64,000 bases of DNA from Gigantopelta aegis (lineage: Eukaryota > Mollusca > Gastropoda > Neomphalida > Peltospiridae), in NCBI RefSeq assembly GCF_016097555.1, contig NC_054702.1, positions 65,560,513-65,624,512 of the forward strand, given 5' to 3'. Shown in pieces: positions 29,248 to 54,842 of the stretch. The position numbers and the translations under genes were made by a program. How positions within the stretch are numbered: position 1 is the first letter of the stretch; every line of letters starts with the position of its first letter. The notes under the pieces are model-generated. The model was not told where the DNA came from and made no database searches. It saw nothing but the letters and a program-made list of their open reading frames with translations.

Positions 29248-29372
29248 ATAGAAAATCCTTGTACAGGCCATATCTTCCTTATCAATTCATATAGGAACAT
29301 CAAAACTTGAATGCAAGTACAAGTTGGGATGGCGGTGTGTCGCATTCCATAACTAGGTCACTGCGACCTACT
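29248..29372 (+). repeat. Isolated diverged copy of the 146-bp repeat unit
   Basis: AAATCCTTGTACAGGCCATATC, AAGTTGGGATGGCGGTGTGTC and TAGGTCACTGCGACCTACTA match the unit arrayed at 31603-32135. Confidence 0.65.
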
Positions 29373-29462
29373 ATTCATCAAACTCCTGACGAACGTATGA
29401 TGTACCCTATCGGTTCTTTTGTTTTGGGTTTGGGTGGAGAGGGGGGTTCTATTATTACTTCA

Positions 29463-30705: not shown

Positions 30706-30904
30706 ATACGCCCTTCTATGGGTCATATTATGGTATGGCATTGTCTTCTGTCCGTCCGTACATCCGTCTGTTAATTTTTTCTTGTCCGAACCATATCTTG
30801 CATACACATGCATACAGGACCATCAAACCTCACATGTAGGAACAGTTTGAGATGTCGGGTTGTCACGTACTATTACTAGCTCACTTTGACCTACCTTTCA
30901 CGGT

Positions 30905-31599
30905 GTAAAGTTTGTTTTGTTTAACGACACCACTGCAGGGCTCGCGATGTCAGTAGTCAAATTAGCCATTGGCTAATTTTACAAAAAATGGCTAAAAAAA
31001 TTTGCAAGTGGCTAAAATTTTGGATAAGCCATTCTCTGTCTTCTGGTGTGAACAAACGGTAATCTATTCGACACCTCAAACATAATAATAATACGAAATA
31101 TTCAATTAGCGTAATAGCGATCTCGCGACCGGTAACGAGAGAAACGGTGTCATCAAAGAATACAGCGTAGGCCTTATGGTGTTCGCTTATTTTAATAATC
31201 ACGGTTATTAATTTTAACGGCATGCATTCAACATGTATGACAGCAATGTCTGGAAGATCTGTAACTTGTTATTTTAACTTTGTAAAGTCTTTGAACCAAA
31301 GTAATAAAACCAGACCGACAATGCTGTCAATTTTAATACACATGCCAGTTCAGGGCCGAAAGACATGGAGGCCAGTGACTGGAGCACATTGATTAATTAA
31401 TCATCGGCTATTGGATATCAAACATTTGGTAATTCTGACAAGCAGTCATCAGAGGAAACCCGCTACATTTTCCCTAATGCAGCAAGGGATCTTTTATATG
31501 TAACATCCCACAGACAGGATAACACATACCACGGCCTTTGACATACCAGTCGTGGCTCACTGGCTGGAACGAGAAATAGCCCAATGGGTCCACCGACAG
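30905..31599 (-). mobile_element. SINE tail 1 + core, 5'-truncated, inserted in the 146-bp array
   Basis: The 9-bp direct repeat TTTCACGGT flanks it (30896-30904, 31600-31608), a proper target-site duplication. Its sequence breaks off in ACGACACCACTG and resumes at 31382 with GAGCACATTG. Confidence 0.82.
30936..31377. mobile_element. DNA element nested inside the SINE
   Basis: 442 bp starting CAGGGCTCGCGATG and ending GGCCAGTG, flanked by ACTG on both sides (30932-30935, 31378-31381). It interrupts the SINE at CCACT|AGAGC. The start resembles the CAGGG MITEs at 22439 and 41462. An 88-codon minus-strand frame inside it is unrecognised. Confidence 0.7.
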
Positions 31600-31602
31600 T
31601 TT

Positions 31603-32135
31603 CACGGTCTACTGCACATAATAGTAAATCCTTGTCCGGACCATATCTTACATACACATGCATACAGGATCATCAAACCTCACATGTAGGAACAACTTGT
31701 GATGGCGGTTTGTCGTGTACTATTACTAGTTCACTATGACCTACTTTTCACGGTCTACTGCACATAACAGTAAATCCTTGTCCGGACCATATCTTGCATA
31801 CAGATGCATACAGAATCATCAAACCTCACATGTAGGAACAACTTGGGATGGCTGTTTGTAGCGTACTACGATTAGGTCACTGTCACCTACTTTTCACGGT
31901 CTACTGCACATAACAGTAAATCCTTGTCCGGACCATATCTTGCATACAGATGCATACAGGACCACCAAACCTCACAGGTAAGAACAACTTGGGATGGCAG
32001 TGTGTCGCGTACTATTAGTATTACTAGGTCACTGTGACCTACTTTTCATGGTCTACTGCACATAACAGTAAATCCTTGTCCAGATCATATCTTGCATACA
32101 GATGCATACAGGAACAACTTGGGATGGTGGTTAAT
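31603..32135 (+). repeat. 146-bp tandem array (about 3.6 units here)
   Basis: CACGGTCTACTGCACATAA begins units at 31603, 31749, 31895 and 32047 (CATGG). Each holds AAATCCTTGTCCGGACCATA and a palindromic GGTCACTGTGACC. Confidence 0.88.
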
Positions 32136-34144: not shown

Positions 34145-34420
34145 CCGGCCTCGGTGGCGAAGTGGTTAAGCCATCGGATTACAAGCTGGTAGGTACAGGG
34201 TTCGTAGCCCGGTACCGGCTCCAACTCAGAGCGAATTCTTAAGGGTTCAGTGGGTAGGTGTAAGGCCTCACCCTCTTCTCTCTCACTAACCACTAACCAA
34301 CTAACAACTAACCCAATGTCCTGGACAGACAGCCTAGATAGCTGAGGTGTGTGCCCAGGACAGCGTGCTTGAACCTTAATTGGATATAAGCACGAAAATA
34401 AATCGAAATGAAATATGAAA
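34145..34420 (+). mobile_element. SINE-C (fourth tRNA-like family), full-length
   Basis: Head ACCGGCCTCGGTGGCGAAGT with B box GGTTCGTAGCC. Body CCTGGACAGACAGCCTAGAT. Tail GAACCTTAATTGGATATAAG and CACGAAAATAA. It supplies the body found in the 106-bp satellite. Confidence 0.82.
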
Positions 34421-37456: not shown

Positions 37457-37775
37457 AGTTTGTTTATTTGTTTTCTTTAACGACACCACTAGAGCACATT
37501 GATTTATTAATCATCGGCTATTGGATGTCAAACAGTTGGTAATTTTGACATACAGTCTTAGAGAAGAAACCCGCTACATTTTTTACATTAGTAGCAAAGG
37601 ATATTTTATTATATGCACCATTTCACAGACAGGATATCACGGGATTTGATATATACCAGTCATGGTGTACTGGGTGGAACGAAAAATAGCCCAAATGGGC
37701 CTATCGATGGGGATCGATCCTAGACCGACCGCACATCGGGCGAGTTCTTTACCACTGGGCTACGTCCCGTCCTCT
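37457..37775 (-). mobile_element. SINE, head 1 + tail 1, full-length
   Basis: CTTTAACGACACCACTAGAG through ACCACTGGGCTACGTCCCGT. Confidence 0.87.
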
Positions 37776-37794: not shown

Positions 37795-37925
37795 CCTAGC
37801 CTATATGGTGACAGCGGGCTTCCTCTTCCTCTGTATCGAACCAATGTTGATATAGCCATATGTTAGACACCAACTAGCCGTAGTTTAAAAATATGCCGAG
37901 GTGTCTTTAAACAAACATTCCTTTC
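37795..37925 (+). mobile_element. SINE tail 3, seed of the 67-bp array
   Basis: GGTGACAGCGGGCTTCCTCT, ATATGTTAGACACCAACTAG and CCGAGGTGTCTTTAAACAAA form a third SINE 3' end. The array repeats its last 28 bp. Confidence 0.7.
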
Positions 37926-39578
37926 CTTCCCACACCTTGTATCCATTGACTGAACAATGTACCCGAGGTGTCTTTAAACAAACATTCCTTTCCTTCCCAC
38001 ACCTTGTATCCATTGACTGAACAATGTACCCGAGGTGTCTTTAAACAAACATTCCTTTCCTTCCCACACCTTGTATCCATTGACTGAACAATGTACCCGA
38101 GGTGTCTTTAAACAAACATTCCTTTCCTTCCCACACCTTGTATCCATTGACTGAACAATGTACCCGAGGTGTCTTTAAACAAACATTCCTTTCCTTCCCT
38201 CACCTTGTATCCATTGACTGAACAATGTACCCGAGGTGTCTTTAAACAAACATTCCTTTCCTTCCCACACCTTGTATCCATTGACTGAACAATGTACCCG
38301 AGGTGTCTTTAAACAAACATTCCTTTCCTTCCCACACCTTGTATCCATTGACTGAACAATGTACCCGAGGTGTCTTTAACAAACAGTCCTTTCCTTCCCA
38401 CACCTTGTATCCATTGACTGAACAATGTACCCGAGGTGTCTTTAAACAAACATTCCTTTCCTTCCCACACCTTGTATCCATTGACTGAACAATGTACCCG
38501 AGGTGTCTTTAAACAAACATTCCTTTCCTTCCCACACCTTGTATCCATTGACTGAACAATGTACCCGAGGTGTCTTTAAACAAACATTCCTTTCCTTCCC
38601 TCACCTTGTATCCATTGACTGAACAATGTACCCGAGGTGTCTTTAAACAAACATTCCTTTCCTTCCCACACCTTGTATCCATTGACTGAACAATGTACCC
38701 GAGGTGTCTTTAAACAAACATTCCTTTCCTTCCCACACCTTGTATCCATTGACTGAACAATGTACCCGAGGTGTCTTTAAACAAACATTCCTTTCCTTCC
38801 CTCACCTTGTATCCATTGACTGAACAATGTACCCGAGGTGTCTTTAAACAAACATTCCTTTCCTTCCCACACCTTGTATCCATTGACTGAACAATGTACC
38901 CGAGGTGTCTTTAAACAAACAGTCCTTTCCTTCCCACACCTTGTATCCATTGACTGAACAATGTACCCGAGGTGTCTTTAAACAAACATTCCTTTCCTTC
39001 CCACACCTTGTATCCATTGACTGAACAATGTACCCGAGGTGTCTTTAAACAAACATTCCTTTCCTTCCCACACCTTGTATCCATTGACTGAACAATGTAC
39101 CCGAGGTGTCTTTAAACAAACATTCCTTTCCTTCCCTCACCTTGTATCCATTGACTGAACAATGTACCCGAGGTGTCTTTAAACAAACATTCCTTTCCTT
39201 CCCACACCTTGTATCCATTGACTGAACAATGTACCCGAGGTGTCTTTAAACAAACATTCCTTTCCTTCCCACACCTTGTATCCATTGACTGAACAATGTA
39301 CCCGAGGTGTCTTTAAACAAACATTCCTTTCCTTCCCTCACCTTGTATCCATTGACTGAACAATGTACCCGAGGTGTCTTTAAACAAACATTCCTTTCCT
39401 TCCCACACCTTGTATCCATTGACTGAACAATGTACCCGAGGTGTCTTTAAACAAACATTCCTTTCCTTCCCTCACCTTGTATCCATTGACTGAACAATGT
39501 ACCCGAGGTGTCTTTAAACAAACATTCCTTTCCTTCCCACACCTTGTATCCATTGACTGAACAATGTACCCGAGGTGT
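37898..39578 (+). repeat. 67-bp satellite array, 25 units
   Basis: The GAGGTGTCTTTAAAC start recurs every 67 bp from 37898; the last partial start is at 39572. One unit (8th) lacks one A. Units differ only at CCCACACC/CCCTCACC and AACATTCC/AACAGTCC. The first part of the unit is SINE tail; the rest, TTGTATCCATTGACTGAACA etc., is unique. Repeat-born open frames occur on both strands. There is no cas context and no spacer variation, so it is not CRISPR. Confidence 0.97.
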
Positions 39579-39673
39579 TAAAGTCTTAATTTATTTAGGC
39601 TTTTTGTGGTTTGGTTTAGAATTTGTTTTTATTTGTTGTTGTTGTTCTTCTCCTTCTGACTTTAATTGATACG

Positions 39674-39743
39674 TGTGTGTGTGTGTGTGTGTTTTGTGCG
39701 TGTGTGTTTGTGTGTGTGTGTGTGTATGTGTGTGTGTGTGTTT

Positions 39744-39774
<31 letters not shown>

Positions 39775-39803
39775 ATGTGTATATATATATATATATGTAT
39801 ATA

Positions 39804-39834
<31 letters not shown>

Positions 39835-40025
39835 GTGTATATGTATGTATGTGTGTATGTATGTGTGTGTATTTGTGTGTATGTGTGTATATGTGTGTAT
39901 GCATGTGTGTGTATGTGTATGTGTGTATATGTATGTGTGTGTAAGTCTGTACGTATGTGTGTATGTATGTGTGTATATGTTGGTGTGTGTATGTGTTGTT
40001 GGTGTGTGTGTGTGTTGTTTGTGAG
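39674..40025 (+). repeat. (GT)n-type low-complexity tract, about 350 bp
   Basis: GTGTGT, TATATA and GTATGT blocks. Frames of over 130 codons on both strands are artefacts. Confidence 0.95.
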
Positions 40026-40105
40026 TTAGTTTGTTGGTGACTATGTGTGTACACGTGTGTGAATTGGGGTTTGCCAGAAGCAGCAGGGACAATGTTTATA
40101 TAGTT

Positions 40106-40375
40106 TTGTTTAACGACACCACTAGAGCACATTGATTTATTAATCATCGATTATTGGATGTCAAACATTTGGTAATTTTGACATATCGTCTTCTACATTT
40201 TTCCATGAGTAGCAACGGATCTTTTAAATGCATCATCCCACAGACAGGGTATCACATACCAAGGCCTTTGATATGCCAGAGAAATAGCCCAATAGGCCCA
40301 CCGACGGGAATCGACCCCAGACCGACCGCGCATCATGTGAGCGCTTTACCATCAGGCTATTACCGCCTCCACATA
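40106..40375 (-). mobile_element. SINE, head 1 + tail 1
   Basis: TTGTTTAACGACACCACTAG through GCGCTTTACCATCAGGCTAT, with a roughly 30-bp deletion before GAGAAATAGCCC. Confidence 0.87.
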
Positions 40376-41053
40376 TATAAATATACATAAACCATCCGGG
40401 ATTGTTAAACAATAAGTGTTGCGGCACTGTGTAATACAACAATGCTGGCTGTGAAGAAAAAAAAAAGGAAAAAAAAAGGAGACAATAAAAAGACGACAAT
40501 AACAACAGACAAAAAAATAAACAATTCTTCAAACATACCAAGTTTTATGCGCTGTTACACTTACAACAGCGATGTAAATCAATTAAGAAGACCCGTGCGA
40601 AGCCATCGCCAAAACCTTTTGCGCTCTCTAGAATCTTGACTGAAAAAAGCCGCTTCAGTTCCACTCGAGAAATCTCGATAAGTTGCCTTTGTTTATGGCA
40701 TCAAGGAATTCGCGTCTAATAGCCTTGTAGATTCCTCTCCCATTCGCGTCTGACTACGAAGCGCTGTTTACCAATACTATACAGTTATACACACTTGGGC
40801 TATCGGAGAACGTGCAGGTGCAACCTGGGGAAACCACAGCGTACAGATTATAAGAAGTTATTTCAGTGTTTCGTTGGAACACACGGAAATAACAGGCTGC
40901 GAGTGTGTGACCGCGAGTGAACTGATATTGGATATGGAATAGAGAATATTTGGTGACCATTTACTGGGAATATTCAGCGGGTTTTTTTGTTGTTGTTGTT
41001 GTTGTGAATAGTTCTTGGAGATTTGAAGATACAAAAAAAAATTAATTTAAAAA
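40376..41053 (+). promoter_or_regulatory. Presumed promoter and 5' UTR region of the stum-like gene
   Basis: Mostly unique sequence upstream of the ATG, apart from an A-rich run at 40456-40520 and (GTT)n at 40986-41005. No clear TATA box. Assigned by position only. Confidence 0.3.
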
Positions 41054-41252
41054 ATGGCTACTGCCCGTGATGATGTAAAGACCTCTTTAACAGGGCAGCA
41101 CAACCACAAAAAGAATGTTCACATCAGTGAAGAGAGGGCTGAGATTATTGAAATTGTCGAAAAACACGGACCTCTCTACAATGCCATACCGTGCATGCCT
41201 CTGCCCGTGGCAGTGTTCTGTTGCGTTTTTAACATCGTCATTCCTGGATTTG
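41054..41252 (+). CDS. stum: Stum/SPEC3-family protein, first coding exon (partial gene)
   Basis: ATG at 41054 (AAAATGG, good context) opens 66 codons plus one base, ending at a consensus donor GTAAGT (41253). Residues 1-43 are hydrophilic with EERAEIIEIVEKHGPLYNAI. They lead into CMPLPVAVFCCVFNIVIPGF, the first hydrophobic segment of the SPEC3 domain as in protein stum homologs. Stum acts in mechanosensory neurons of Drosophila; SPEC3 was first described as a ciliary protein of sea urchin. The next exon should continue with Gly-Thr and a second membrane segment. I found none before 64000, so intron 1 exceeds 22 kb or the exon is orphaned. Confidence 0.75.
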
Positions 41253-41461
41253 GTAAGTGAAGACTTTTGTTTTTCTTTGTAAAAATTCCATTCCATGCAA
41301 CATCATTCAGCATGCAATTATATAAATAAATAGAGAGATAGATAGATATTAATGGGACTGTCTTGAATCTAGAGCCTTTTGACGAGTAAACTAAATTTTC
41401 TTGTTTGAAATATCATTGTCTGTATTTGATATCCAATGTGTTGGCGATTGTGTGCTAATGT

Positions 41462-41616
41462 CAGGGCCGTACTCTGACCAAAATCCTAGGGGGAGGGGCA
41501 CTACTTTTTATAAACAAATGAAACACTATACAAATTAAACCCTGAGATGTGTATTCTATTTTCTGGAGTAACAAAACTAAAACAGTGAGATTCTCAGGGA
41601 GGCAACTGCGGCCCTG
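41462..41616. mobile_element. Short MITE with 5-bp target duplication
   Basis: 155 bp from CAGGGCCGTA to GCGGCCCTG, ends inverted over about 9 bp, flanked by AATGT at 41457-41461 and 41617-41621. Confidence 0.75.
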
Positions 41617-42149
41617 AATGTTTGTACGGGCCTGAATGTTTGTAGTACAGTCATTGTCTTTTTTTTTAACTTCGTTATATATATGATTTTCGTACGTACG
41701 AAATTACTGAAAGGTGAAATCCATTTTGTTCTACTACAAACATTAGGAAAACAACAAAGTCCTTGTTTATACAGACACTGATAGTCTAAATAGGAAAATA
41801 TCAAGTATGTAAATTTGGTCATCGAAAAGGATTTGTTAGGCGTAAACCAAGTTACAATGGATCCAAAACCCAGCACACTTCCTTTAAAAGTGTTTATAAC
41901 AATGTCTTTGCCAGTGAAACTATGAAAACATTTCGTAACTATGAAGTTGAGTGGCAGTAAAGGTAATCTAGTGGACTTAGGAGAGGATGGTTCAATATTA
42001 ACTACATTTAAAGATTTTTGAACACACGTTGCTTTTATGTACAAGCAGTACTGTATTGTACAATAGAGAAACGCGTGTGAAGCGTCCTCTGCAGGGACGA
42101 GGTTGCAATACGGCGTGACGCATGTTTGTTTTAGCACCACGAGCTGCAT
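41577..42149 (-). other. Unexplained 190-codon open frame, doubtful
   Basis: The longest non-repetitive open frame in the window, antisense within the presumed stum intron. No recognised domain, Cys/Phe/Thr-rich, no signal peptide, and its 3' end overlaps the MITE at 41462-41616. The opposite strand holds short protein-like pieces (KVLVYTDTDSL at about 41755-41787; KFGHRKGFVRRKPSYNGSK), so the minus frame may be a shadow of a decayed + strand gene. Confidence 0.2.
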
Positions 42150-42176
42150 TGTTCACCGAGTCGTTTACAAAGGCCA

Positions 42177-42623
42177 CCTAGGGGTACAGAACAATAATGT
42201 GGCCTTAACAAACAGGTGGTCTTTATATAAAGATATTATACGATAAATTATACAGAAAGTAGTATATTAGTATCTGAAGCGTAATTTTCTTGACAACCAG
42301 TTGTTATGCACATAGTCTGGGATGAATATAAAATTTTCAACACCAATGGGCCACTGTGTAGGGGAGGGGGAGTAGGTGCTAGCATTTGTTTTACTGTACA
42401 TGAACAAAGTAATGAATGAATGATTATTATATAACATTTAGTGAAATATCTTAAAATATCAATGAAATAAAAGTGTTATCAGTTACTCAGTCACGATAAC
42501 ACATTTTAGAGTGAAAATTTCACTATTGTGTTATCGTCACTGTAGAAAGTGTTATCTTCACTGTAAGAATGCCGGAACTATTTTGCTGCTGGCATTTTAA
42601 AAATAACGGTAAATTGCCAAAAG
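42177..42623. other. No feature seen
   Basis: AT-rich. A short inverted GTTATCGTCACTG-type motif lies near 42478-42560. Confidence 0.4.
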
Positions 42624-42810
42624 TTATATAATAAATAGAAAATTTCATGTTTTTTGGTCAAATATGATTTATATCTCATCTCGTGAAATTTGCAATCATA
42701 TCACACTCGTCGCGCAAGCGCGACTCGTAATATATCTTTGCAAACTTCACTTGATAAGATATACATCATATTTGATCCAAAAAAAAAATGAAATATCCTC
42801 TATATATTTA
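42624..42810. mobile_element. MITE with long inverted arms
   Basis: Arms of about 70 bp. The left arm includes GGTCAAATATGATTTATATC and the right arm GATATACATCATATTTGATCC. The centre CGTCGCGCAAGCGCGACTCG is itself a hairpin. Confidence 0.8.
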
Positions 42811-42880
42811 ACGACACCCCATCACAGAGAATACATCGGCTAGTGGGTGTCAAACAAAGGTAAGTACACGAATGCAGTGG
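42808..42880 (-). mobile_element. SINE tail 4 fragment
   Basis: TTTAACGACACCCCATCACA, ATACATCGGCTAGTGGGTGT and CAAACAAAGGTAAGTAC. Confidence 0.6.
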
Positions 42881-43341
42881 GGAACTTTATTTTACACTTT
42901 TCAACAGATGTTTGAGAAAGTCACTAGCCCCCACAGAAGCGTTGACTAGTGCCCTGTGTATTATAGTAATACAGTTGATAATTTCCACTAGCCCAGACCA
43001 AAACACACTAGCCGAACCGATGGATAATGGAATTATCGAACCCTGACTTTAAATAGAGAAATGACAAATGGTATGTTATAGAGTGGTGCTTCGTATCTGG
43101 TCGGTACCGGGAATTATTGTGCCTGAAAACATGTGCGGGCTACCACTAAAATTAGCATGATATTTTTATGCGGATTTAGGGTAGCCAAGGACTCTTCCTA
43201 TTACATGCGAAACATACCTGCAATGGTTCAGACTTTCTTCGATTAACTGTAAATGCGCTTCAACTGCATATGACATTGTTATTATAGTCGTTTATTGAAT
43301 TTGATTTGGTGGTATTCAAGCTATAGAGTAAAAGTAAGTAG

Positions 43342-43344
<3 letters not shown>

Positions 43345-43438
<94 letters not shown>
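43345..43438 (+). repeat. (CT)n microsatellite
   Basis: About 47 CT units. Confidence 0.95.
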
Positions 43439-43439
<1 letters not shown>

Positions 43440-45046
43440 AATCAAGGAACCCCACGACTCCTCGTATCTTATGCCTTTTGTAGCAGATCCGATTGTGTAC
43501 AGTAAATATATTACATCTACCCAAAATAGTTTCTGTACTAATAACTAGTATATACAAGTTAATGATGAATCCACGTGGTTCTATATTACAGGACATCATG
43601 ATCAGTACATCAAAAATAGTTCTATATTAAAACGCAATAAACACAATCATTATAGATAAAATGTTAAATTGTTTTACTTCATGACTTGTCTTACAAAACA
43701 CTATTGTCACGATAACAAAACTGGCACAAGAAAATGCCATAAGCAAAACAAAACGACAATTCAATTTGTAGGTTTCAAAACTCGCCAAAACATATGGTGG
43801 CCCAAAATATAATAATACATGTTTGCAAATTATGGTAAGCGAACTATGAGCAAGATATTAATGTGGAATACAATATATTAATAGTGGCTCATGTGTTATA
43901 GCTCTAAAGAAGATAATATTATTTGGGCGACAAACACCATTAATGTTTTAATATTTAAGTCGCCCAAACAGGACATTGGTCGCATTTGGTGACCGGGCCA
44001 CAGGCCGTTCCGAGCCCTGAATTGTAAGAAAAGTTCGAGCCTCTAAAATATTTAATATTAAAAACAAACGTCTATTGACACTTCCAGTAGCAATTTACCT
44101 TGTATTTTATTTTCAAAACCAGTTACGTTTTTATTCTTCCGAGAAGAAAATTTATTGCGCTGTTTGTAGTGTCGCTTACCATAAATACATTATAATGTGT
44201 GCAGTTGTTTTGGAAACTGGCGTTGATGAGATTTCCATCCAGACAAGACTAACTAACATAACTATGACGCACACTGCACCTCTGTCCATTGCGTTTTCGA
44301 GAGAAAAAGTAGGAATGTGTAACAGGATATTTGTTATCCTTGAAAATAATTGAGCAATTACGACTGATATTATAATCAAAGTCGAACGGCGTTATCTCGA
44401 CCTCTCTTATCTCATTAGCTCAGGATACCTACTAGTATATCGAGATAAAGAAAGTGTCCAATGGCGTAATTTCCAGCAACAATTACCTTGTTGCTCGAAC
44501 CATCGTTATCTCGTCGAAACCAGAGGAACAGAGTATGGAGTGTACCCTCTCCTTCTTCCCCCATCCCGAGCGCTACAGATTTTCTAATATAACCCAGGTA
44601 TATAACGAACTGATGATTAACTTGTTAGAAAATAATAACAACAAAATATGTGTAAACAAAAGCAGCTGCTTCATTTGATGGTTGGCGTTTCTTCAGTAGC
44701 AATATAAATGGCATACTGAAATGAATCGAAAAATACGGGTTTAAAAAAGGCAAACATAAGAACAGTGATAACGCATTGTACAGTGAGTGTTGAACGTGAG
44801 TAACTCACTTCTCTCCCACTCACAAATATCATTTCCATCAGACAAAACCCAAACACCCAAACACCCACCCCGTCCCAAGGAAAATTCTAGATTCCCACCT
44901 GGTTTATACTTGCATGTTGCCTCCCTTGAAGTAAATTATACCCGATTGTCTTAGTTATATTTTCCCAGACAACTTTCCTTAACTACACATCAAATAGTAA
45001 TATGAGATGTGCATTTTATATAACTTCTTCCTAGGAAGGCCGATCA
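43439..45046. other. No gene seen
   Basis: A 10-bp-stem hairpin TTTGGGCGAC...GTCGCCCAAA lies at about 43922-43970. CCGAGCCCTG at 44010 looks like the right end of a CAGGG-type element whose left end I could not find. The frames at 44075-44353 (+) and 44176-44379 (-) are unrecognised. Confidence 0.4.
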
Positions 45047-45362
45047 TGGTTTATTTAACGACGCACCCAACACGTTTTATTTACGATTATATGGCGTCAG
45101 CCATATGGTTAAGGACCACACAGATATTAAGAGAGGAAACCCGCTGTCGCCACTTCATGGGCTACTCTTTTTCGATTAGCAGCAAGGGATCTTTTATATG
45201 TACCACCCCACAGACAGGATAGTACATACCACGGCCTTTGTTACACCAGTTGTGGAGCACTGACTGAAATGAGAAATAGCCCAACGGGTCCACCGATGGG
45301 GATCGATCCTAGATCGACCGCGCATCAAGCGAACGCCTTACCACTGGGCTACGTCCCGCCCT
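45047..45362 (-). mobile_element. Chimeric SINE, head 1 + tail 2
   Basis: Tail TTTATTTAACGACGCACCCA and CCGCTGTCGCCACTTCATGG (type 2), but head GGGGATCGATCCTAGATCGA and ACCACTGGGCTACGTCCCGC (head 1). Confidence 0.87.
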
Positions 45363-46200
45363 TTCTTCCACGGAAGTGACACATTTTCCCAGTTCAACAA
45401 TATTAAGTAATAGGGTAATATCAGTGGAGTAACTATTCTTCATGTGAGTCATTGTTCCTTTTTTCTCTCCTAGTCAAATTTTCATATATTATAGTTAAAA
45501 ATAATGTTAGTTTGATTTACAAAATCTCTATTTTCCATGCCAATGTAAGACCTTTATATTCATGTGAAACGTTCTATCAAAGTACATAATACTTGTATAC
45601 ACTGTAACTGTAGCAGATCGACAAAGACCGATCGTAGTACTGATACATTTTAAATTCTGAATCTCATGTTAACAAATGTTTGAGACTAGATATGTCCAAA
45701 ATGTAACATAATATTCAGCATTTTAACACCAATTAAAATGCATTAAACTCTTAGACTGTCAGCCTTTAAACACTAAGACATTTACTAGTAAATTACTGCT
45801 TTCAACACGATCGACATCGCATGACCAAAGAGAATATCAAAGAACAAAACCAAAACCAAGAACGAAAACCCCCAGCGTAATTCAGCTGTCTAAACCACAC
45901 ATATGACTGATGAGCATAAAACTAAAAATACACCAGAGAATAAACCCACGACAACAAACGAACAAATCACATATATAAACTTAGGACGATCAGTTCACGA
46001 TGCATTTAGTTTTACGTATCAGAGTGATTGCATGAAAGGGTATTTGACAACAGCGCAAATCTCGTAATTTACTGCACTGCATTCCGAAACGTTCCGTGGC
46101 ATGGGCTGCATTATGCATCTCATCACGGGATTATTAAAGTATCATGTTCGCATTCCAAGAGTCATCTTCTGCAGTTCTGCTTGAAACCGCTCTAGGCTGT
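45363..46200. other. No feature seen
   Basis: AT-rich, no convincing frame or repeat. Confidence 0.4.
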
Positions 46201-46201
46201 G

Positions 46202-46214
46202 GTTAAAAAAAAAG

Positions 46215-46244
<30 letters not shown>
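46202..46244 (+). repeat. Poly-A tract
   Basis: About 40 A with one G interruption. Confidence 0.95.
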
Positions 46245-46247
<3 letters not shown>

Positions 46248-46257
46248 GTTGAGCGGA

Positions 46258-46370
46258 GGAGTTCCGGTGGTGTAGTGGATAAGTCACTGGACTTAAGGCT
46301 GGTAGCTTCTGGGACCCCATCCCGGTACCGGTGTAAACGGAATACATGTCCGTAGGAATAGTTGTCTCCC
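46258..46370 (+). mobile_element. SINE fragment with a fifth tRNA-like head
   Basis: GAGTTCCGGTGGTGTAGTGG, then ATAAGTCACTGGAC. A similar head is at 57940-57975. Confidence 0.5.
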
Positions 46371-46387
46371 CGAACTCTACCTCCTAG

Positions 46388-46702
46388 GAGGGGCGGGACG
46401 TAGCCCAGTAGTATTACGCTTGCTTGATGCGCGGTCGGTTGGGGATTGATCCCCGTCGGTGGGCCCATTGGGCTATTTCTCGTTCCAACTAGTACACCAC
46501 GACTGGTATATCAAAGGCCTAGGTATGTTCTATCCTGTCTGTAGGATGGTGCTTATAAAAGATCCCTTGCTACTAATGGAAACATGTAGCAGGTTTCCTA
46601 TCTAACTGAGACTATGTGTCAAAATTACCTAATGTTTGACATCTAATAGCCGATGATTAATAAACCAATGTGCCTTGGTGGTGTCGTTAAACAAAACAAA
46701 GT
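46388..46702 (+). mobile_element. SINE, head 1 + tail 1, seed of the 106-bp array
   Basis: Complete from GGGGCGGGACGTAGCCCAGT to TGGTGGTGTCGTTAAACAAA. Its last 25 bp are the first bases of every unit of the adjoining array. Confidence 0.9.
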
Positions 46703-47738
46703 CCAATACACCGACTTCTGTCTCATTAACCAAACACAACAAACCACTAACCCACTGTCCTGGACAGACAGCCAAGATAGCTGATGGTGTCGTTAAACAA
46801 AACAAAGTCCAATACACCGACTTCTGTCTCATTAACCAAACACAACAAACCACTAACTCACTGTCCTGGACAGACAGCCAAGATAGCTGATGGTGTCGTT
46901 AAACAAAACAAAGTCCAATACACCGACTTCTGTCTCATTAACCACACACAACAAACCACTAACCCACTGTCCTGGACAAACAGCCAAGATAGCTGATGGT
47001 GTTGTTAAACAAAACAAAGTCCAATACACCGACTTCTGTCTCATTAACCACACACAACAAACCACTAACCCACTGTCCTGGACAGACAGCCAAGATAGCT
47101 GATGGTGTTGTTAAACAAAACAAAGTCCAATACACCGATTTCTGTCTCATTAACCACACACAACAAACCACTAACCCACTGTCCTGGACAGACAGCCAAG
47201 ATAGCTGATGGTGTCGTTAAACAAAACAAAGTCCAATACACCGACTTCTGTCTCATTAACCACACACAACAAACCACTAACTCACTGTCCTGGACAGACA
47301 GCCAAGATAGCTGATGGTGTCGTTAAACAAAACAAAGTCCAATACACCGATTTCTGTCTCATTAACCACACACAACAAACCACTAACCCACTGTCCTGGA
47401 CAGACAGCCAAGATAGCTGATGGTGTTGTTAAACAAAACAAAGTCCAATACACCGACTTCTGTCTCATTAACCAAACACAACAAACCACTAACCCACTGT
47501 CCTGGACAGACAGCCAAGATAGCTGATGGTGTTGTTAAACAAAACAAAGTCCAATACACCGACTTCTGTCTCATTAACCAAACACAACAAACCACTAACT
47601 CACTGTCCTGGACAGACAGCCAAGATAGCTGATGGTGTTGTTAAACAAAACAAAGTCCAATACACCGACTTCTGTCTCATTAACCACACACAACAAACCA
47701 CTAACCCACTGTCCTGGACAGACAGCCAAGATAGCTGA
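46678..47738 (+). repeat. 106-bp satellite array, 10 units
   Basis: TGGTGTCGTTAAACAAAACA recurs every 106 bp at 46678, 46784 and so on to 47632. The unit is SINE tail 1, then a linker with AATACACCGACTTCTGTCTC, then SINE-C body (CACTGTCCTGGACAGACAGC, AGATAGCTGA). Units differ at about five sites (TCG/TTG, GACTTC/GATTTC, CCAAAC/CCACAC, ACCCA/ACTCA, ACAGA/ACAAA). 106 is not a multiple of 3, so repeat-born 70-codon frames appear in every unit on both strands. Confidence 0.97.
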
Positions 47739-47790
47739 TGCGTGTGCCCAGTACAGCGTGCTTAATTGGATATAAGCACGAAAACAGGAA
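47739..47790 (+). mobile_element. SINE-C 3' end following the array
   Basis: GTGTGCCCAGTACAGCGTGC and TTAATTGGATATAAGCACGA continue SINE-C exactly where the last array unit leaves it. Confidence 0.82.
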
Positions 47791-48204
47791 TCAATGAAAT
47801 AACAGTAGTTTAATTCGCTTGCAACCTGACTTAGAATGCCTCTTTGTTTTTTATTTCTTGTTTGGTAAATTATGTCAAAGAATATTTTCAAAATGCTCTT
47901 CTTTTTTTTTTCTTTTCTTTTTTTTCGGGGTGGGGGGGTGGGGGGTGGTGGGGGGATGCATTTCGATAAGATCATTTATAATAATCAGTGGAAACATCTC
48001 TAGCGACTTTTTTCGTGTTCTCATTTTCAAGGGTGCCATAGATCAAGTTTTTACCTACTGGTGTCAGATAAAACGCATACAAAGTGTATCAACCCACGCA
48101 GGCTGAACAAATCAAGATAATAACACCTTGAGTTCAATCTGATTAAAGTAAAACAGGTGTAATAGTGTCACTTGAAACTTAAAATAACTTATGTTCAGAT
48201 TAGT

Positions 48205-48505
48205 GCATTTTGTATTCGTATCGTATTGCATCGTATACAGGGTATCAACCTCGAATGTATTTTGATTAACAGTTCACTAAATAAAACTATGGCAGTTTAT
48301 TCGGCATAGATAGTATTTACAAAAATAAATAGTAACTTTGTACTACCAATCATAGCTTTCTTTCTTTTACATTATGTTCGTGCTTATATTCAATTAAGGT
48401 TCAAGCACGCTGTCCTGGGCATACACCTCACCTACAATTGCTTAAGATGCGCAAGGGAGCTTATAAATACGGCGTGAACATTCGGAAGTCATTCTCTCTT
48501 TAAGG
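48205..48505 (+). repeat. Old direct duplication, unit A
   Basis: CCTCGAATGTATTTTGATTA, CAGTTCACTA and GTGAACATTCGGAAGTCATT recur in diverged form at 48818-49012. Unit A holds an inserted SINE-C piece (about 48370-48440). Confidence 0.6.
48370..48440 (-). mobile_element. SINE-C 3' end fragment
   Basis: TTCGTGCTTATATTCAATTA and GGTTCAAGCACGCTGTCCTG. Confidence 0.75.
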
Positions 48506-48507
48506 GA

Positions 48508-48783
48508 CTTGGTGCGCGGTTGATGTGGGATCGATCCCCTTCGGTGGGCCCATTGGTCTATTTCTCGTCCCAGCCAGTGCACCACGACTGATACACCAAA
48601 GGCCGTAGAATGTGCTATCCTGTCTGTGGGATGGTGCATATAAAAGATCCCTTGCTACTAATGGAAACAAGTGTAGCGGGTTTCCTCTCTAAGACTAAAT
48701 GTAAAAATTACCAAATATCTGACATCCAATAGCCGATGATTAATAAATTAATGTACTCTAGTGGTGTCGTTAAACAAAACAAA
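48508..48783 (+). mobile_element. SINE, head 1 (truncated) + tail 1
   Basis: Starts inside the head at GACTTGGTGCGCGGTTGATG (A box lost) and ends CTAGTGGTGTCGTTAAACAA. Confidence 0.87.
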
Positions 48784-48817
48784 CTTTTACAATAATTTAT
48801 GTTAAAAATCGTGCATT

Positions 48818-49012
48818 GTTTTTTTTTTATTGTATTGTATTGTACACTGGTCTGAACCTCGAATGCTCTTTGATGAACAGTTCACTATATACAACTGTAG
48901 AATTTTATTCGGCATATTATACCATACCAATCATAGATACACTTACTTAAGATGCATAAAGGATCTTATTAATAAAGTATGAACATTCGGAAGTTATTGT
49001 CTTTTAAACGTT
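48818..49012 (+). repeat. Old direct duplication, unit B
   Basis: CCTCGAATGCTCTTTGATGA, ATTTTATTCGGCATATTATA and GTATGAACATTCGGAAGTTA match unit A. Confidence 0.6.
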
Positions 49013-49256
49013 ATAGACAAATCTTTTTATAGATCGAACACGAGGGAGAACTTGTCTATGTCAGAATAATGGTATCTACACGCAGAGCAACAATCTCGTA
49101 TTTGTATGCGCACAGCAAACATTCTTTGACAGCAGCTGTTCATATTCTTTTTCAAAGAAAGTGAGCGCATCTTTAACACACACATCAACACATTGTTGAC
49201 GACTGACTTTATGTACCGTGCATGTTAATGATGCTATTTACGACACATAAAGGAAG

Positions 49257-49577
49257 GAAATGGTTTATTTAACGACGCACTCAATACATTTTATTTACGG
49301 TTATATGGCGTCGGACATATGGTTAAGGACCACACAGATATTGAGGGAGGAAACCCGCAGTCGCCACTTCAGGGGCTACTCTTTTCGATTAGCAGCAAGG
49401 GATCTTTTATATGCGCCATCCCATAGACAGGATAGCACATACCATGGCCTTTGATGTATCCAGTCGTGGTGCACTGGCTGGAGTGAGAAAAAGCCCAATG
49501 GGTCCACTGACGGGGATCGATCCCAAACCGACCGCGCATCGAGCGAGCGCTTTACCACTGGGCTACTTCCCGCCCCT
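49257..49577 (-). mobile_element. Chimeric SINE, head 1 + tail 2
   Basis: Tail TTTATTTAACGACGCACTCA and CCGCAGTCGCCACTTCAGGG; head CGGGGATCGATCCCAAACCG and ACCACTGGGCTACTTCCCGC. Confidence 0.87.
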
Positions 49578-49644
49578 TACGACACGTAAGGTCTGGAGCC
49601 ATTTGGGATGCTCGTTTTCAGGTGATCAAATGCTGATGATCATT

Positions 49645-49710
49645 TGCGTTCGTGCTTATATTTAAATACGGTTCGAGCACATAGTAGTGGGCATGGAATT
49701 GTGTTGGATT
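49645..49710 (-). mobile_element. SINE-C 3' end fragment
   Basis: TTCGTGCTTATATTTAAATA and CGGTTCGAGCACATAG. Confidence 0.6.
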
Positions 49711-49808
49711 TCCAGGACAGAGGTTAATGAAAAGGAAACGTCCCGTTACTACAGAACGAAAACAAAAATGGAAAGAACGTTACAGAGGTAGGCAGGAAAG
49801 AAAATCGT

Positions 49809-49828
49809 CCCCCCCCCCCCCCCCCCCA
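49809..49828 (+). repeat. Poly-C tract
   Basis: About 19 C. Confidence 0.9.
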
Positions 49829-49914
49829 ATAAACTCAGAAATCAGTATAAATAATGTATTTATGCAAGTGAGTGACAGTGAGTGATAGACCACTAGCCTG
49901 GCGCTGACGGAAAT

Positions 49915-50265
49915 AATCAGACACGTATATAAATGCAGTCTTCAACTTCATGCCAGTCTTCTGGGACAAGGGATTTCAGATATTACGTCTCCTAGGATAT
50001 GTCATCGATGGACATGCAAGCTAAACCATCGTGCATACCACGTAGAAGACGAAAGTCGATATCATCCATGATGTAGTTTGCAAGTCAGAGACTGGATGTT
50101 TTCACAGATAGTTTGTGTAAAATGGTAAAAGCAGCCACTTGGCTGGACATCAAGACCAAATACAGCTGTCATGAGTCTGAGAATGGAATCTTCCAAGTCG
50201 GTGACAACGGTGTCTACATTCAGATCTAGTTTCTGTTCTTCACACTTTTTAACTGCGGGATTCTA
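49915..50265 (-). pseudogene. MULE (Mutator-like) transposase fragment, frameshifted
   Basis: On the minus strand 50264-50070 reads VVTDLEDSILRLMTAVFGLD then PSGCFYHFTQTICENIQSL. This matches the MULE transposase core (TDFE...A...FP, then the CxFHxxQ block with its conserved Cys and His). After a frameshift at about 50075, MDDIDFRLLRGMHDGLACMS (the usual LAF-P-ddV block) follows. LKSLVPEDWHEVED follows in yet another frame, and a YF block in a third. The order is that of the family, so this is one decayed copy, not an active gene. No terminal inverted repeats were identified. Confidence 0.68.
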
Positions 50266-50430
50266 ATGAAGGCGTTTTCGGAGAACATACTTGGTGTCAT
50301 GAATAAGTTGCCATCCAGAAGAAGGTATCAGCTTCAGTTAACAGCTTACAATTTTACCTGTCATTTTCGTTCCACAGCTTATTTTCCTATGACTTTCATC
50401 CCATTGCCATTTTTTCTTGTGATTTTTTCC

Positions 50431-50932
50431 CCGTCTACCGCCGCACGGACCACTACCAGTCAGCAACAAAGAGATTCTTGACCGTTAACGTATAGTCAGT
50501 CGTAGAGATTCCTGATCGGAGTATATGACGTACTCGATATTGTATCCAAGCTCATGTTAGATAACCATAAGCTACTTATTGCTGTCGTAACAAATTCACA
50601 GCTATATTAAGTAACGTTTGATGACCATTTAATTGGCAGTGGCTAACGTTACAAAAACATGGTCATCCACGGTCATTGATATGGCTACCAAAGACCACTT
50701 ATTGTTGTTTGATGAATTATTTAATAGTTACCAAAGACCATTTATAGTTCATCAGTTGTACTGTAACATAAAGTAGCTTAATGGTTATCTGATACTGAAT
50801 CGACCATCTGATCATCGCTCTTCTGAGTCCAGCAATGCACTCACTCTGGTTGGAGCATGTACTGGAATGCTAACCTAGAACAAACCGATCAGAAACAAAA
50901 CGACTAGACCACAGCGTCATGGTCGATTCTTT

Positions 50933-50972
<40 letters not shown>

Positions 50973-51244
50973 CCCGCATTAGGCAGACTGTTTAATGTGC
51001 TCTTGGCCACAGACAGGTGATCAGTTGGCTCGGCTAGTCACACGCCTGTTTTATGCATCGCTTGGACTATAATATCGCGACTGCAATTTCCTGATTTAAG
51101 AGTCTCGCACAGTAATGATCACAATTATCGTGCTGTATCGCGCTACGAGAAGCTATCGCTATTGTGTCAACACCAGTGCACTTAGCAAGTTCTGCACACG
51201 AAAGCATATTTTTATGTGCGCATGAGTGGAACGCCAACATAACT
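50431..51244. repeat. Tandem duplication, copy 1 (814 bp)
   Basis: From CCGTCTACCGCCGCACGGAC to CGCCAACATAACT. I see no base difference from copy 2 except the poly-C tract, 38 C here (50934-50971). Confidence 0.92.
50556..50795. mobile_element. MITE-like inverted-repeat element (also in copy 2 at 51370-51609)
   Basis: GTTAGATAACCATAAGCTAC and GTAGCTTAATGGTTATCTGA are inverted ends about 240 bp apart. The inside has GGCTACCAAAGACCACTTAT and AGTTACCAAAGACCATTTAT. A relative lies at 37078-37222. Confidence 0.65.
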
Positions 51245-52046
51245 CCGTCTACCGCCGCACGGACCACTACCAGTCAGCAACAAAGAGATTCTTGACCGTT
51301 AACGTATAGTCAGTCGTAGAGATTCCTGATCGGAGTATATGACGTACTCGATATTGTATCCAAGCTCATGTTAGATAACCATAAGCTACTTATTGCTGTC
51401 GTAACAAATTCACAGCTATATTAAGTAACGTTTGATGACCATTTAATTGGCAGTGGCTAACGTTACAAAAACATGGTCATCCACGGTCATTGATATGGCT
51501 ACCAAAGACCACTTATTGTTGTTTGATGAATTATTTAATAGTTACCAAAGACCATTTATAGTTCATCAGTTGTACTGTAACATAAAGTAGCTTAATGGTT
51601 ATCTGATACTGAATCGACCATCTGATCATCGCTCTTCTGAGTCCAGCAATGCACTCACTCTGGTTGGAGCATGTACTGGAATGCTAACCTAGAACAAACC
51701 GATCAGAAACAAAACGACTAGACCACAGCGTCATGGTCGATTCTTTTCCCCCCCCCCCCCCCCCCCCCCCCCCGCCCGCATTAGGCAGACTGTTTAATGT
51801 GCTCTTGGCCACAGACAGGTGATCAGTTGGCTCGGCTAGTCACACGCCTGTTTTATGCATCGCTTGGACTATAATATCGCGACTGCAATTTCCTGATTTA
51901 AGAGTCTCGCACAGTAATGATCACAATTATCGTGCTGTATCGCGCTACGAGAAGCTATCGCTATTGTGTCAACACCAGTGCACTTAGCAAGTTCTGCACA
52001 CGAAAGCATATTTTTATGTGCGCATGAGTGGAACGCCAACATAACT
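51245..52046. repeat. Tandem duplication, copy 2 (802 bp)
   Basis: Directly abuts copy 1. Its poly-C is 26 long (51748-51773), which accounts for the whole 12-bp length difference. Confidence 0.92.
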
Positions 52047-52167
52047 TCCATCATGTCGCAAGAATCCCTGGTTTCTGTCTAAGCTCATTTACTGCACAAC
52101 CTTGTATTATTATGTACAACAAATAGTCAGCTACCTTACATGTCTCCCTCCCTCACCCTACTAGATC

Positions 52168-52837
52168 CACCCAACTTCCACCCATTCCACCCAGCTTCCA
52201 TCCACACTCCACCCACTCCACCCAGCTTCCATCCACTCCACCCAGCTTCCATCCACCCACTCCACCCAGCTTCCATCCACTCCACCCAACTTTCATGCAC
52301 TCCAGCCAACTTCCACCCACTCCACCCAGCTTCCATCCACACTCCACCCACTCCACCCAGCTTCCATCCACCCACTCCACCCATCTTCCATCCACTCCAC
52401 CCAGCTTCCATCCACTCCACCCAACTTCCATGCACTCCAGCCAACTTCCATCCACTCCACCCAGCTTCCATCCACTCCACCCAACTTCCATGCACTCCAG
52501 CCAACTTCCATCCACTCCACCCAGCTTCCATCCACTCCACCCAACGTCCATCCACTCCACCCAGCTTCCATCCACTCCACCCAGTTTCCATCCACCCTCT
52601 CCGCCCAGCTTCCATCCACCCCACCCAACTTCCATCCACTCCAGCCAACTTCCATGCACTCCAGCCAACTTCCATCCACTCCACTCGGCTTCCATCCACT
52701 CCACCCAACTTCAATCCACTCCACCCTTCACTCCACCCAGCTTCCATCCACTCCACCCAACTTCCATCCACCCAGCTTCCATCCACTATACCCAACTTCC
52801 ATCCACTCCACCCAGCTTCCATCCACACTTCATCCAT
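52168..52837 (+). repeat. G-poor minisatellite, about 20-bp units
   Basis: About 30 units of CTTCCATCCACTCCACCCAG with 4-bp insertions and AACTTCCATGCACTCCAGCC variants. G is almost absent on this strand. Frames of up to 246 codons on both strands are created by the repeat and have no independent support. Confidence 0.95.
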
Positions 52838-54147
52838 GTAAGGCACTGGATGGCTTAGAATGGCAATTTGAGGCATTACCTATTAAACATACCAAGACAG
52901 GACTCGCATACTCTCAATAAAAGATAGTAAGACCAATACTCGTAGAAGGGTTTTTTTCTGGAATCACGCATCCCCGTCTCTAGCCCACCTAACGAACGGT
53001 TTCTTGATTTAAAACGATTCTCTGCTTGCTACCCGTCGACTCCATATAACAATTCACTTCATTTTCGCATTTACCTTATTTTGATACCCCATTGTCGATG
53101 TATTTTTCGTGATATGGTATCGCTAAACATGTATTCATTCATTCCATATGACACCCTCTATTCCTCAGTTCAATGAAGAAAAGCAATCATCTCTTAAAGA
53201 CAAATGCAGACACTACTGCACTGATATTTCAAGTTCGATCCATTAGACTGGGGTCAAAACGATGTGTTGCTTCTTTGTTTTATTGTCGACTGATGGCATG
53301 TCCCGAATGACTAAACCTCGTGACTTTTCTACATAAACAGACCTGTTTTTATATGATTCACGCGGGAAAACTCATGCAATTTGTATGCGTTTTAAAGAAA
53401 TGTTTGGACAGTTGAACGCATTAGTCTAATGATTAGAAAGATCACAATCACATGGGATGTGTCGAAATGAATATTTCCAGCAAGAAGGTGTAAATCGACT
53501 TGCTACTGAGGATATACATAACTGCGAGATAGCATAGTGTTGCAGTTGGGAATTTTTTATTTTTGTTTGTTTGTTTGTTTGTGTGTGTTTTTTTGGTGTT
53601 TTTTTGTTGAAGCATCATAGTTTTTATTATTCATGTCGGCCTAGACGTACGAGACGAATGAACTGCAGGCCAAAACAAAAATCCAGAAATTGCAAAAATC
53701 GGAAAAATCTGAACGACAAAATCATTAACACTATCAAAACTTTATATATCTACCCAAAGCTGAGTTAATAAGATGCTAAATCACTGTCATGTGTTTTAAG
53801 ACTGATGCAGACCTCGCCGTTTAAGGGGAGCGATCACTCGCTCCTCATCACTCCCCTAAAACTATTTCAAGGAGAGTGATTTTTAGCTCTCCTTAGGTAT
53901 GTTAATTTATAGGGTATGAGTATGGTAATATCATAAATGGCTCTCCATAATCTAAGTTAGGGAAGAAGTTAATACCTCCTCTAATTGTTTTAACGCAAAG
54001 GTCTGCTGATATGGTAGCTTTCAGCAGTCGAACTCGTCAAGGAGAATTTTGTCTCCCTCGTGATATATCCGCGTACACCCATGCTTGTTGGGTATGCTGA
54101 CGATAAACAAACGTATACACGGTGATCATTAAAATTCAAAACGTTGT

Positions 54148-54149
<2 letters not shown>
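52838..54149. other. No gene seen
   Basis: Short frames only. A small hairpin GGAGCGATCACTCGCTCC lies at 53827-53844. Confidence 0.4.
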
Positions 54150-54178
<29 letters not shown>

Positions 54179-54215
54179 TGGGGTTGGGGTTGTTTTTTTT
54201 TTTTTTTGCAGACTA
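54150..54215 (+). repeat. Poly-G and poly-T tract
   Basis: About 29 G followed by GGTT and a T-run. Confidence 0.93.
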
Positions 54216-54274
54216 TTTAATTTTTTTCTTTGAGTTACAACAAAATGGTTTCTCGATCTTCCACCATCGGCGGG

Positions 54275-54555
54275 AAGGGACGTAGCCCAGTGGTAAATAG
54301 CTCGTCTGATGCACGATTGGTCTATGGTCGATCCATGTCAGTGGGCCCAATAGCCAGTGCACCATGACTGCTATATCAAAGGTCGTGGTATGTGCTATAA
54401 TTTCTGTGGATAAATACATATAAAATATGCCTTGCTAATAACGGAAAAATGTAGCAACATTTCCTCTCTAAGACTATATGTCGAAATTACCAAATATTTG
54501 ACATTCAATAGGCGATGATTTATAAATCAGTGTACTCTAGTGGTGTCGTTGAACA
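54275..54555 (+). mobile_element. SINE, head 1 + tail 1, seed of the 78-bp array
   Basis: GGGACGTAGCCCAGTGGTAA through TACTCTAGTGGTGTCGTTGA. Confidence 0.85.
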
Positions 54556-54842
54556 GATCTTGGTGTTACTAATATTCTGTCACTGGATGGTCTGGATTTA
54601 TATATCATTGTACTCTAGTGGTGTCGTTAAACAGTTCTTGGTGTTCCTAATATTCTGTCACTTGATGGTCGGGGTTTATAAATCATTGTACTCTAGTGGT
54701 GTCGTTAAACTGATCTTGGTGTTACTAATATTCTGCCACCTGATGGTCGGGGTTTATAAAGCAATGTACTCTAGTGGTGTCGTTAAACAGTTCTTGGTGT
54801 TCCTGATATTCTGCCACTTGATGGTCTGGGTTTATAAATCAA
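54531..54842 (+). repeat. 78-bp tandem array, 4 units
   Basis: TGTACTCTAGTGGTGTCGTT begins at 54531, 54609, 54687 and 54765. Each unit is SINE tail 1 plus CTTGGTGTT(A/C)CTAATATTCTG and TTTATAAATCA. 78 is 3 x 26, so a 119-codon repetitive frame stays open through it; I do not consider it a gene. Confidence 0.95.

Follow-up and report, generated by a model that had tools for sequence, protein, structure and literature searches.

Minisatellite arrays that begin in the 3' ends of SINEs in Gigantopelta aegis

The window, a 64,000-nucleotide stretch of the Gigantopelta aegis genome (NC_054702.1, positions 65,560,513 to 65,624,512), carries three forward-strand minisatellites with units of 67, 106 and 78 bp. 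All three were recovered by TRF and, as a reading made from the sequence alone (the sequence-only reading) had proposed, each begins, at its left edge, within the 3' portion of a matched SINE. The host SINE presumably resembles the RUDI / V-SINE elements of molluscs. ARAGORN detected no tRNA in it, and an Rfam search returned three sub-threshold matches, with no tRNA up to E 0.5; a tRNA-like SINE head is visible by eye. The SINE tail motif gave 0 matches in collections of genome contigs and viral contigs, and six short strings from the host SINE had no match in the literature searched.

The 67-bp array (37896–39578) comprises 25 units plus 9 bp (TRF, ×25.1, 98% match). Just 5' of it lies an oppositely oriented A1 SINE copy (37467–37772, reverse strand, 88% to the A1 consensus by BLAST), and the array starts within an A3-type SINE 3' domain (37852–37931, forward strand, 90% to the A3 unit over 3–81), for which no SINE head was found. 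The unit is SINE almost throughout, being 85% identical to the A3b SINE 3' domain over 59 positions. Alignment showed the adjoining SINE piece to be A3a-like and the units to be A3b-like; the array therefore did not arise by plain duplication of its neighbor. Its right edge reads CCGAGGTGT, with 9 bp common to both ends, more than expected by chance.

The 106-bp array (46679–47745; TRF, ×10.1, 98%) is made up of ten units, each joining 22 bp of A1 tail to 84 bp of a second element, SINE B. The array starts in the tail of a forward-strand A1 copy (46388–46700, 89% to A1 over positions 1–309). Upstream of this copy is a forward-strand tRNA-like head (46256–46387). Unscored visual comparison with the B copy at 34170 makes it the probable 5' portion of the SINE B that hosts the A1 insertion; the remainder of SINE B follows the array on the same strand (47739–47802). 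SINE B positions 14–164 match 47653–47802 at 83%, a value to be read with the B consensus having been built partly from this locus; the post-array piece also matches copies at 34328 (82%) and 35713 (80%), and the B part of the unit is 86% and 80% identical to the copies at 34269 and 35765. The A1 copy appears to be nested in SINE B. At the right edge (TG|CGTGTG), 2 bp are shared, which is within chance (P 0.20), and GGTGT is absent. Unit variants at positions 7, 37, 55 and 74 are shuffled among the units, as exchange predicts. The B part recurs at many sites elsewhere in the genome. Of 1176 candidates, 40 were scored; among these, near-identical matches to the whole unit were confined to its own locus, and most other sites held a solitary, dispersed B part. 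A private whole unit containing a singly dispersed B part points to birth in place. Weighing against this, sequence at C12:31.749 Mb matches a dimer of the 106-bp unit through its unit junction (77%, two overlapping matches), and a related array may lie there.

The 78-bp array (54519–54841; TRF, ×4.1, 90%) consists of four units plus 11–14 bp and starts in the tail of a forward-strand A1 copy (54272–54555, 80% to A1 over positions 3–302). Each unit combines ~38 bp of A1 tail with ~40 bp of DNA without a SINE match clear of shuffles. The latter was rejected as a hidden SINE on both strands: its score was reached by at least 124 of 1000 shuffles on the same strand and, at best, by 82 of 1000 on the other. 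At the right edge 11 bp are shared, which exceeds chance.

The unit compositions bear on the sequence-only description of every unit as SINE tail plus the DNA following it. It describes only the 78-bp unit plainly; the 67-bp unit is nearly all SINE 3' domain, and in the 106-bp unit the non-tail part does follow the tail, as another SINE. The companion proposal, that the period equals the distance from one GGTGT to the next, holds at the right edge of the 67-bp array and not at that of the 106-bp array, and follows trivially within any array whose unit carries a single GGTGT; as a rule for the period it was discarded. GGTGT was present in 6 of 13 SINE B copy rows, a set that includes one weak antisense row.

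Taking these loci together, we favor, at odds of about two in three, an origin of the SINE-derived minisatellites by short tandem duplication at the SINE 3' end, with later expansion by exchange or conversion. An A-type SINE copy, or its end, would undergo a short tandem duplication, with one breakpoint, the downstream one, at the SINE 3' terminus or slightly beyond it, and the upstream one within the last 20–110 bp of the SINE. The unit would then be almost entirely SINE (67 bp) or would include a neighbor, be it SINE B (106 bp) or DNA without a SINE match (78 bp); from two copies onward, units would undergo unequal exchange or gene conversion, expanding the array and evening it out. Two lines of evidence bear on the order of events: i) the 106- and 78-bp arrays each have one SINE body, upstream, with only the tail repeated from unit to unit, which puts the SINE first, and ii) the 106-bp units are 98% alike, as against 89% identity of the host SINE to its consensus, which places expansion later than insertion. 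Where the arrays lie, what their units are made of, their recurrence and the gathering of breakpoints at the SINE end are observed; this order, and a DNA-level mechanism of slippage or repair at short homologies followed by unequal exchange, are what we infer from the loci.

For the 67-bp array a different history is possible, though doubtful: a copy of a dispersed 61-bp SINE-end satellite would have landed here and joined the SINE end by homology. The unit matches at 34 other places by hand count, at least seven of them single short matches, and the 20 fetched loci related to it all proved to be SINE-end arrays, with near-identity among some of them. Six fetched loci of the 61-bp satellite are linked by consensus identities of 97–100% (12 best pairs), as homogenization between loci would give; the like was not seen for the three window arrays. 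The different sub-types of the 67-bp units and the adjoining SINE piece also favor a landed copy. Against it, identity between the 67-bp unit and the fetched satellite consensuses does not exceed 78%, and full-length matches at 99–100% were confined to its own locus in the genome search. The sequence-only reading had named units recurring at many sites away from a SINE as evidence against its proposal. Arrays related to the 67-bp unit do occur at many sites, and of the 20 fetched just 4 have a SINE match directly upstream (by reading), although none of the 20 carries the 67-bp unit itself.

SINE ends are abundant (~72 per 200 kb in a random sample), and some arrays will inevitably start in one; we consider it unlikely that coincidence of this kind accounts for the pattern. 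In the window, the start precedes a SINE end by 0–50 bp for 3 of 7 arrays with a period of at least 40 (expected 0.19, P 0.0006) and for 3 of 4 arrays with at least three copies (expected 0.11, P 0.0001); under a ±30 bp rule only one array qualifies (P 0.20 and 0.13). Scored by unit content, 3 of 4 arrays have SINE-3' units (expected 0.25, P 0.001), a point against coincidence. All of these window P values are post hoc. The random sample, 20 stretches drawn within the available lengths or lower bounds of 12 contigs (577 Mb) with the fetched ones on 11 contigs, totals 200 kb and was scored by unit content, with the observed counts of 2 and 3 set manually, a 110-bp edge rule having missed one array at locus L037. 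It holds 29–30 arrays of 40–250 bp by the merging rule, all but two without SINE-3' units, and shows no excess: 2 of 29 arrays against an expectation of 1.34 (P 0.40) or, once two-copy duplications are counted, 3 of 43 against 1.94 (P 0.30), as coincidence predicts. The SINE-3' cases are arrays of 106 and 89 bp at L037 and a 95-bp duplication at L033. At E 1e-3 no SINE-body match was obtained for any unit consensus from the sample; single units of one array (L032, 5091–5819) match A1 body positions 99–159 at 74–75%. The absence of an unrelated 60–110 bp satellite, noted from the sequence alone, is borne out by TRF in the window, where arrays of 111 bp (×2) and 146 bp (×3.5) fall just beyond that range; as a generality it fails and was local luck.

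Across 1.149 Gb, exact tail–tail pairs at 54–84 bp numbered 763, against 0 for a reversed-pattern control. SINE bodies form arrays as well, which counts against the favored origin: a body motif gave 518 pairs, including one run of ~6.6 kb on C3. The body motif was the commoner of the two in the random sample, yet tail pairs outnumber body pairs, which argues against coincidence. Among the pairs listed for two contigs, at least 19 tail-pair loci were read, compared with at least 8 body-motif loci over the same rows. Per copy, we estimate that arrays start at the SINE 3' end several-fold more often than at the body motif, with body copy number itself estimated from the random sample and not counted. 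The claim that the tail seeds satellites throughout the genome therefore survives as recurrent starts at SINE 3' ends; its strong form does not, as SINE-3' arrays in the random sample are no commoner than random segments give. The tail is a favored part of the SINE and not a dominant satellite source, and SINE-end birth does not look like the origin of most arrays in the genome.

A further point against coincidence is the concentration of breakpoints at the SINE 3' end. Eighteen of the tail-pair loci were analyzed; they show 12 re-entry points, so births recur. In 17 of 18 the gap from the exact tail match to SINE re-entry is at most 21 bases (P 8e-7, on the simple assumption of gaps uniform over 0–57), leaving little or no flank needed. 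Homology between tail and flank, proposed earlier as the driver, is thus not supported; in the window, the sharing is beyond chance for two arrays (9 and 11 bp) and within it for the 106-bp array (2 bp).

A terminus-bound breakpoint in 17 of 18 loci is also what template jumping would give. Here a LINE reverse transcriptase copying SINE RNA at the target would jump from within the SINE back to a 3' end, either that of its own template or that of a different SINE RNA, and add several 3' domains after a full SINE, so that arrays would be born at retrotransposition and expand later. Several of the 18 loci have a T-rich extension resembling more SINE tail, and, of 17 A3 arrays scored, 7 stop no more than 2 bp from the SINE 3' terminus, with 5' starts spread evenly, both in its favor. 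We nevertheless judge template jumping distinctly unlikely: the 106-bp unit contains SINE B and the 78-bp unit contains flank; 3'-end clustering over all 17 A3 arrays is not significant (Rayleigh P 0.20; one of them, L023, is cut by the locus edge); and none of eight A3 arrays tested had a shared stretch above shuffles that would mark a target-site duplication, a result that likewise leaves simple insertion of these arrays unsupported. We give little credence to the broadest version, in which the SINE 3' terminus would be a hot spot of array birth by template jumping at retrotransposition, continuously feeding the genome 60–110-bp satellites, of which the 61-bp one would have spread to many loci, adjoining exons in some genes.

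The growth of repeat arrays out of SINEs is a known kind of event, SINE-derived satellites having already been published for squamates and a limpet. The squamate satellites (sSats) are tandem part-SINEs with a longer terminal unit continuing to the SINE end; they had many independent origins, and their homogenization rises with array length (PMC10702118). The Gigantopelta arrays resemble them in composition (the 67-bp unit nearly all SINE, the 106-bp unit from two SINEs, the 78-bp unit about half) and in a left flank that continues as SINE body (106 and 78 bp) or 3' domain (67 bp); they differ in deriving from the SINE 3' end and in units that may include a second SINE or flank. PcH-sat of the limpet Patella caerulea has a 179-bp unit, ~118 bp of it from the 3' part of Nin-SINE (PMC11121367); it is one abundant pericentromeric satellite, whereas Gigantopelta has many smaller arrays with differing units. 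Human minisatellites from Alu and other TEs are tandemly duplicated TE parts (PMC3389668), and the Haber and Louis model, as recounted in PMC6947457, proposes short flanking repeats as a seed for later local expansion. Unlike both, the arrays described here show weak breakpoint homology in one case of three, and their breakpoints are tied to the SINE terminus.

Several striking cases close together in a single window can make one element seem more important than it is. Even so, a single element group in Gigantopelta displays all stages of satellite birth, from two-copy duplication through locus-private arrays to a spread satellite; with all stages present and their breakpoints different, the seeding step is testable by breakpoint counts.

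TRF run on the window places three tandem arrays where the sequence-only reading had located them: a 67-bp array at 37896-39578 (25.1 copies), a 106-bp array at 46679-47745 (10.1 copies) and a 78-bp array at 54519-54841 (4.1 copies). Unit make-up was compared with a SINE library assembled from window copies, in which three elements are relevant: A1 (316 bp), with the tail CTCTAGTGGTGTCGTTAAACAAAACAAACTTTAA in many copies; A2, with a head as in A1 and a different 3' body; and B, whose 3' body is also different. Genome loci later revealed a third A sub-type, A3. Similar SINEs occur in molluscs, and the animal is probably molluscan.

The 106-bp unit consists of 22 bp of A1 tail and 84 bp matching SINE B (86% to the copy at 34269-34350 and 80% to that at 35765-35689), and the remainder of SINE B follows the array. 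Among genome matches to this unit (40 of 1176 candidates scored), identities of 97-100% along the full length of one or two units are confined to its own locus, and most matches elsewhere comprise the B part alone, at 78-93%. Taken together, an A1 copy seems to be nested within a B copy, and the array to span their junction; the B head upstream of this A1 copy was recognised by eye alone. The B part is also repeated at C7:36.77 Mb. At C12:31748739-31749007 (31.749 Mb), the 106-bp dimer gives two overlapping 77% matches that cross the unit junction and lie 96 bp apart; a related array, possibly the second with SINE B in its unit, may therefore be present there.

The 67-bp unit aligns to the 3' domain of sub-type A3b at 85% over 59 positions, and the SINE score of its flank-like 33 bp was equalled in just 2 of 1000 shuffles. 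The piece to the left of the array is an A3a-type 3' domain (90%), so that the unit and the SINE piece beside it differ in sub-type. The 78-bp unit combines ~38 bp of A1 tail with ~40 bp of other DNA, for which no SINE-library match stood clear of shuffles. The observation is thus real, while its claim that every unit is SINE tail plus the DNA following it holds plainly for one array of the three. Elsewhere in the window, a 146-bp array (31384-32113, 3.5 copies) lies against a SINE that is cut at position 68. Close by are single relatives of the array's unit (30781-30907 and 29237-29377; 89% and 76%), one leading directly into 28 bp of exact SINE tail on the opposite strand. A 20-bp array (52177-52826, 33 copies) has several frames open on both strands, probably by chance of composition.

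With 34 SINE ends in the window listed by hand, three of the seven arrays with a period of at least 40 begin at a SINE end or up to 50 bp upstream of it (0.19 expected, P 0.0006), as do three of the four with at least 3 copies (P 0.0001); these P values are descriptive, since the pattern was seen before testing. Under a +/-30 bp rule, just one window array qualifies. Short homology between tail and flank had been advanced as the mechanism; it is supported in part only, and is not needed. The duplication ends share 9, 2 and 11 bases in the 67-, 106- and 78-bp arrays (P 0.025, 0.20 and 0.005 against random window segments of equal lengths, values inflated by the inclusion of the window's own arrays). 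The right edge of the 106-bp array is without GGTGT; the motif occurs at the corresponding SINE B position in 6 of 13 rows and so may have been present there earlier, but the junction as observed can be accounted for without the motif. Variants are shuffled among the units of this array, which fits exchange between units.

Outside its own array, the 67-bp query identified 34 places, counted by row (40 of 52 candidates scored), at least 7 of which are single short matches. All 20 related loci that we fetched carry arrays of SINE-3' units, from 56 bp upward (73, 81, 94, 100), and in a comparison of 20 consensus units a SINE-end core was common to all. Consensus identities of 97-100% connect six loci, which represent a satellite that has spread. 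By our reading, a SINE match lies directly upstream of the array at four loci (L010, L013, L023 and L026); at the remainder, no upstream SINE match was seen or the locus edge cuts the upstream side. In seven of 17 scored arrays, the end lies no more than 2 bp from the SINE terminus. A Rayleigh test over the 3' ends of all 17, including L023, which is cut by the locus edge, gave P 0.20, and the 5' starts are even (P 0.99). No target-site duplication rose above shuffles in 8 of 8 arrays tested. Three tail-satellite arrays end close to exons: in L011 (array end at 872) ~7 bp before an exon with collagen similarity (Pfam, 4e-8), in L024 (2839-4199) ~11 bp before one with EGF_CA similarity (4e-8), and in L027 (1012-1650) ~31 bp before one with PRPF6 similarity (PDB, 1.7e-54). 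For ~20 arrays, three lying this close to a likely 3' splice site may be more than expected.

In squamates, Vassetzky and others report SINE-derived satellites whose geometry matches that of the arrays here (PMC10702118), the limpet PcH-sat derives from a SINE 3' part (PMC11121367), and satellites and RUDI in clams are the subject of PMC5139131. Reviews cover SINE-tail and Alu-derived minisatellites together with a short-flanking-repeat model (PMC9659126, PMC6947457), and transposable elements are credited with 23% of human minisatellites and satellites (PMC3389668). Searches of an open-access library found no report of the present case.

The prominence implied for the tail finds no support in a random sample of 20 seeded 10-kb stretches from 11 contigs (200 bases N in one). 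The sample yielded 29-30 arrays after removal of redundancy (40-250 bp, about 3 copies or more), and two of them have SINE-3' units (1.34 expected from equal-length random segments, P 0.40); both, of 106 bp and 89 bp, are in L037, with a SINE adjoining on the upstream side. Including two-copy duplications, SINE-3' units make up 3 of 43 (1.94 expected, P 0.30). No unit consensus in the sample came from SINE body (1.73 expected; P of none 0.17), and single units of one L032 array are 74-75% identical to it. On these counts, SINE ends are not over-represented as an array source relative to the genome at large, at low power. One locus, L034, has a long array of 66-132-bp repeats (1937-5830) that looks possibly coding.

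Genome-wide, the exact tail 14-mer occurs 43,715 times, and forms 763 pairs in direct order 54-84 bp apart, with 0 in the reversed control; a body 14-mer gives 518 pairs. Among the matches listed, which are the first places, from C1 to C2:46.2 Mb for tail and body alike, there are 10 + 9 tail loci (among the nine are two with a common unit, separated by 44 kb) and 5 + 3 body loci. In the random 200-kb sample, the body 14-mer has 18 exact copies versus 4 for the tail, a tail count too low by about half. The tail accounts for 19 of 27 loci, with P from 0.0025 to 6e-8 for 61,000 to 163,000 body copies, a range estimated from the sample. SINE-derived arrays of some length occur at C2:21.936-21.990 Mb (two neighbours of ~4 and 6 kb, with a 68-bp SINE-A1-end unit) and at C3:49.542-49.549 Mb (SINE body, ~67-bp units, ~6.6 kb), the latter indicating that SINE body too can become a long satellite; in L016 (608-825), 71 bp of SINE A2 body is triplicated within one SINE copy.

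Breakpoints were analysed for 18 tail loci, the nineteenth being probably related to its neighbour and so omitted. In these, the tail is matched exactly as far as A1 301-313, 0-43 other bases follow (one locus overlaps by 3), and re-entry into A1 falls at 245-275. The alignments give 12 distinct re-entry points, within a range restricted by the search pattern itself; the alignment at C1:18.54 Mb is weak. The extra bases number at most 21 in 17 of the 18 loci (P 8e-7, on the simple assumption of uniformity over 0-57). Seeding by the SINE tail is right in kind, its prominence being the part that the random sample does not bear out: births of such arrays are recurrent in the genome, and tied to the SINE terminus.
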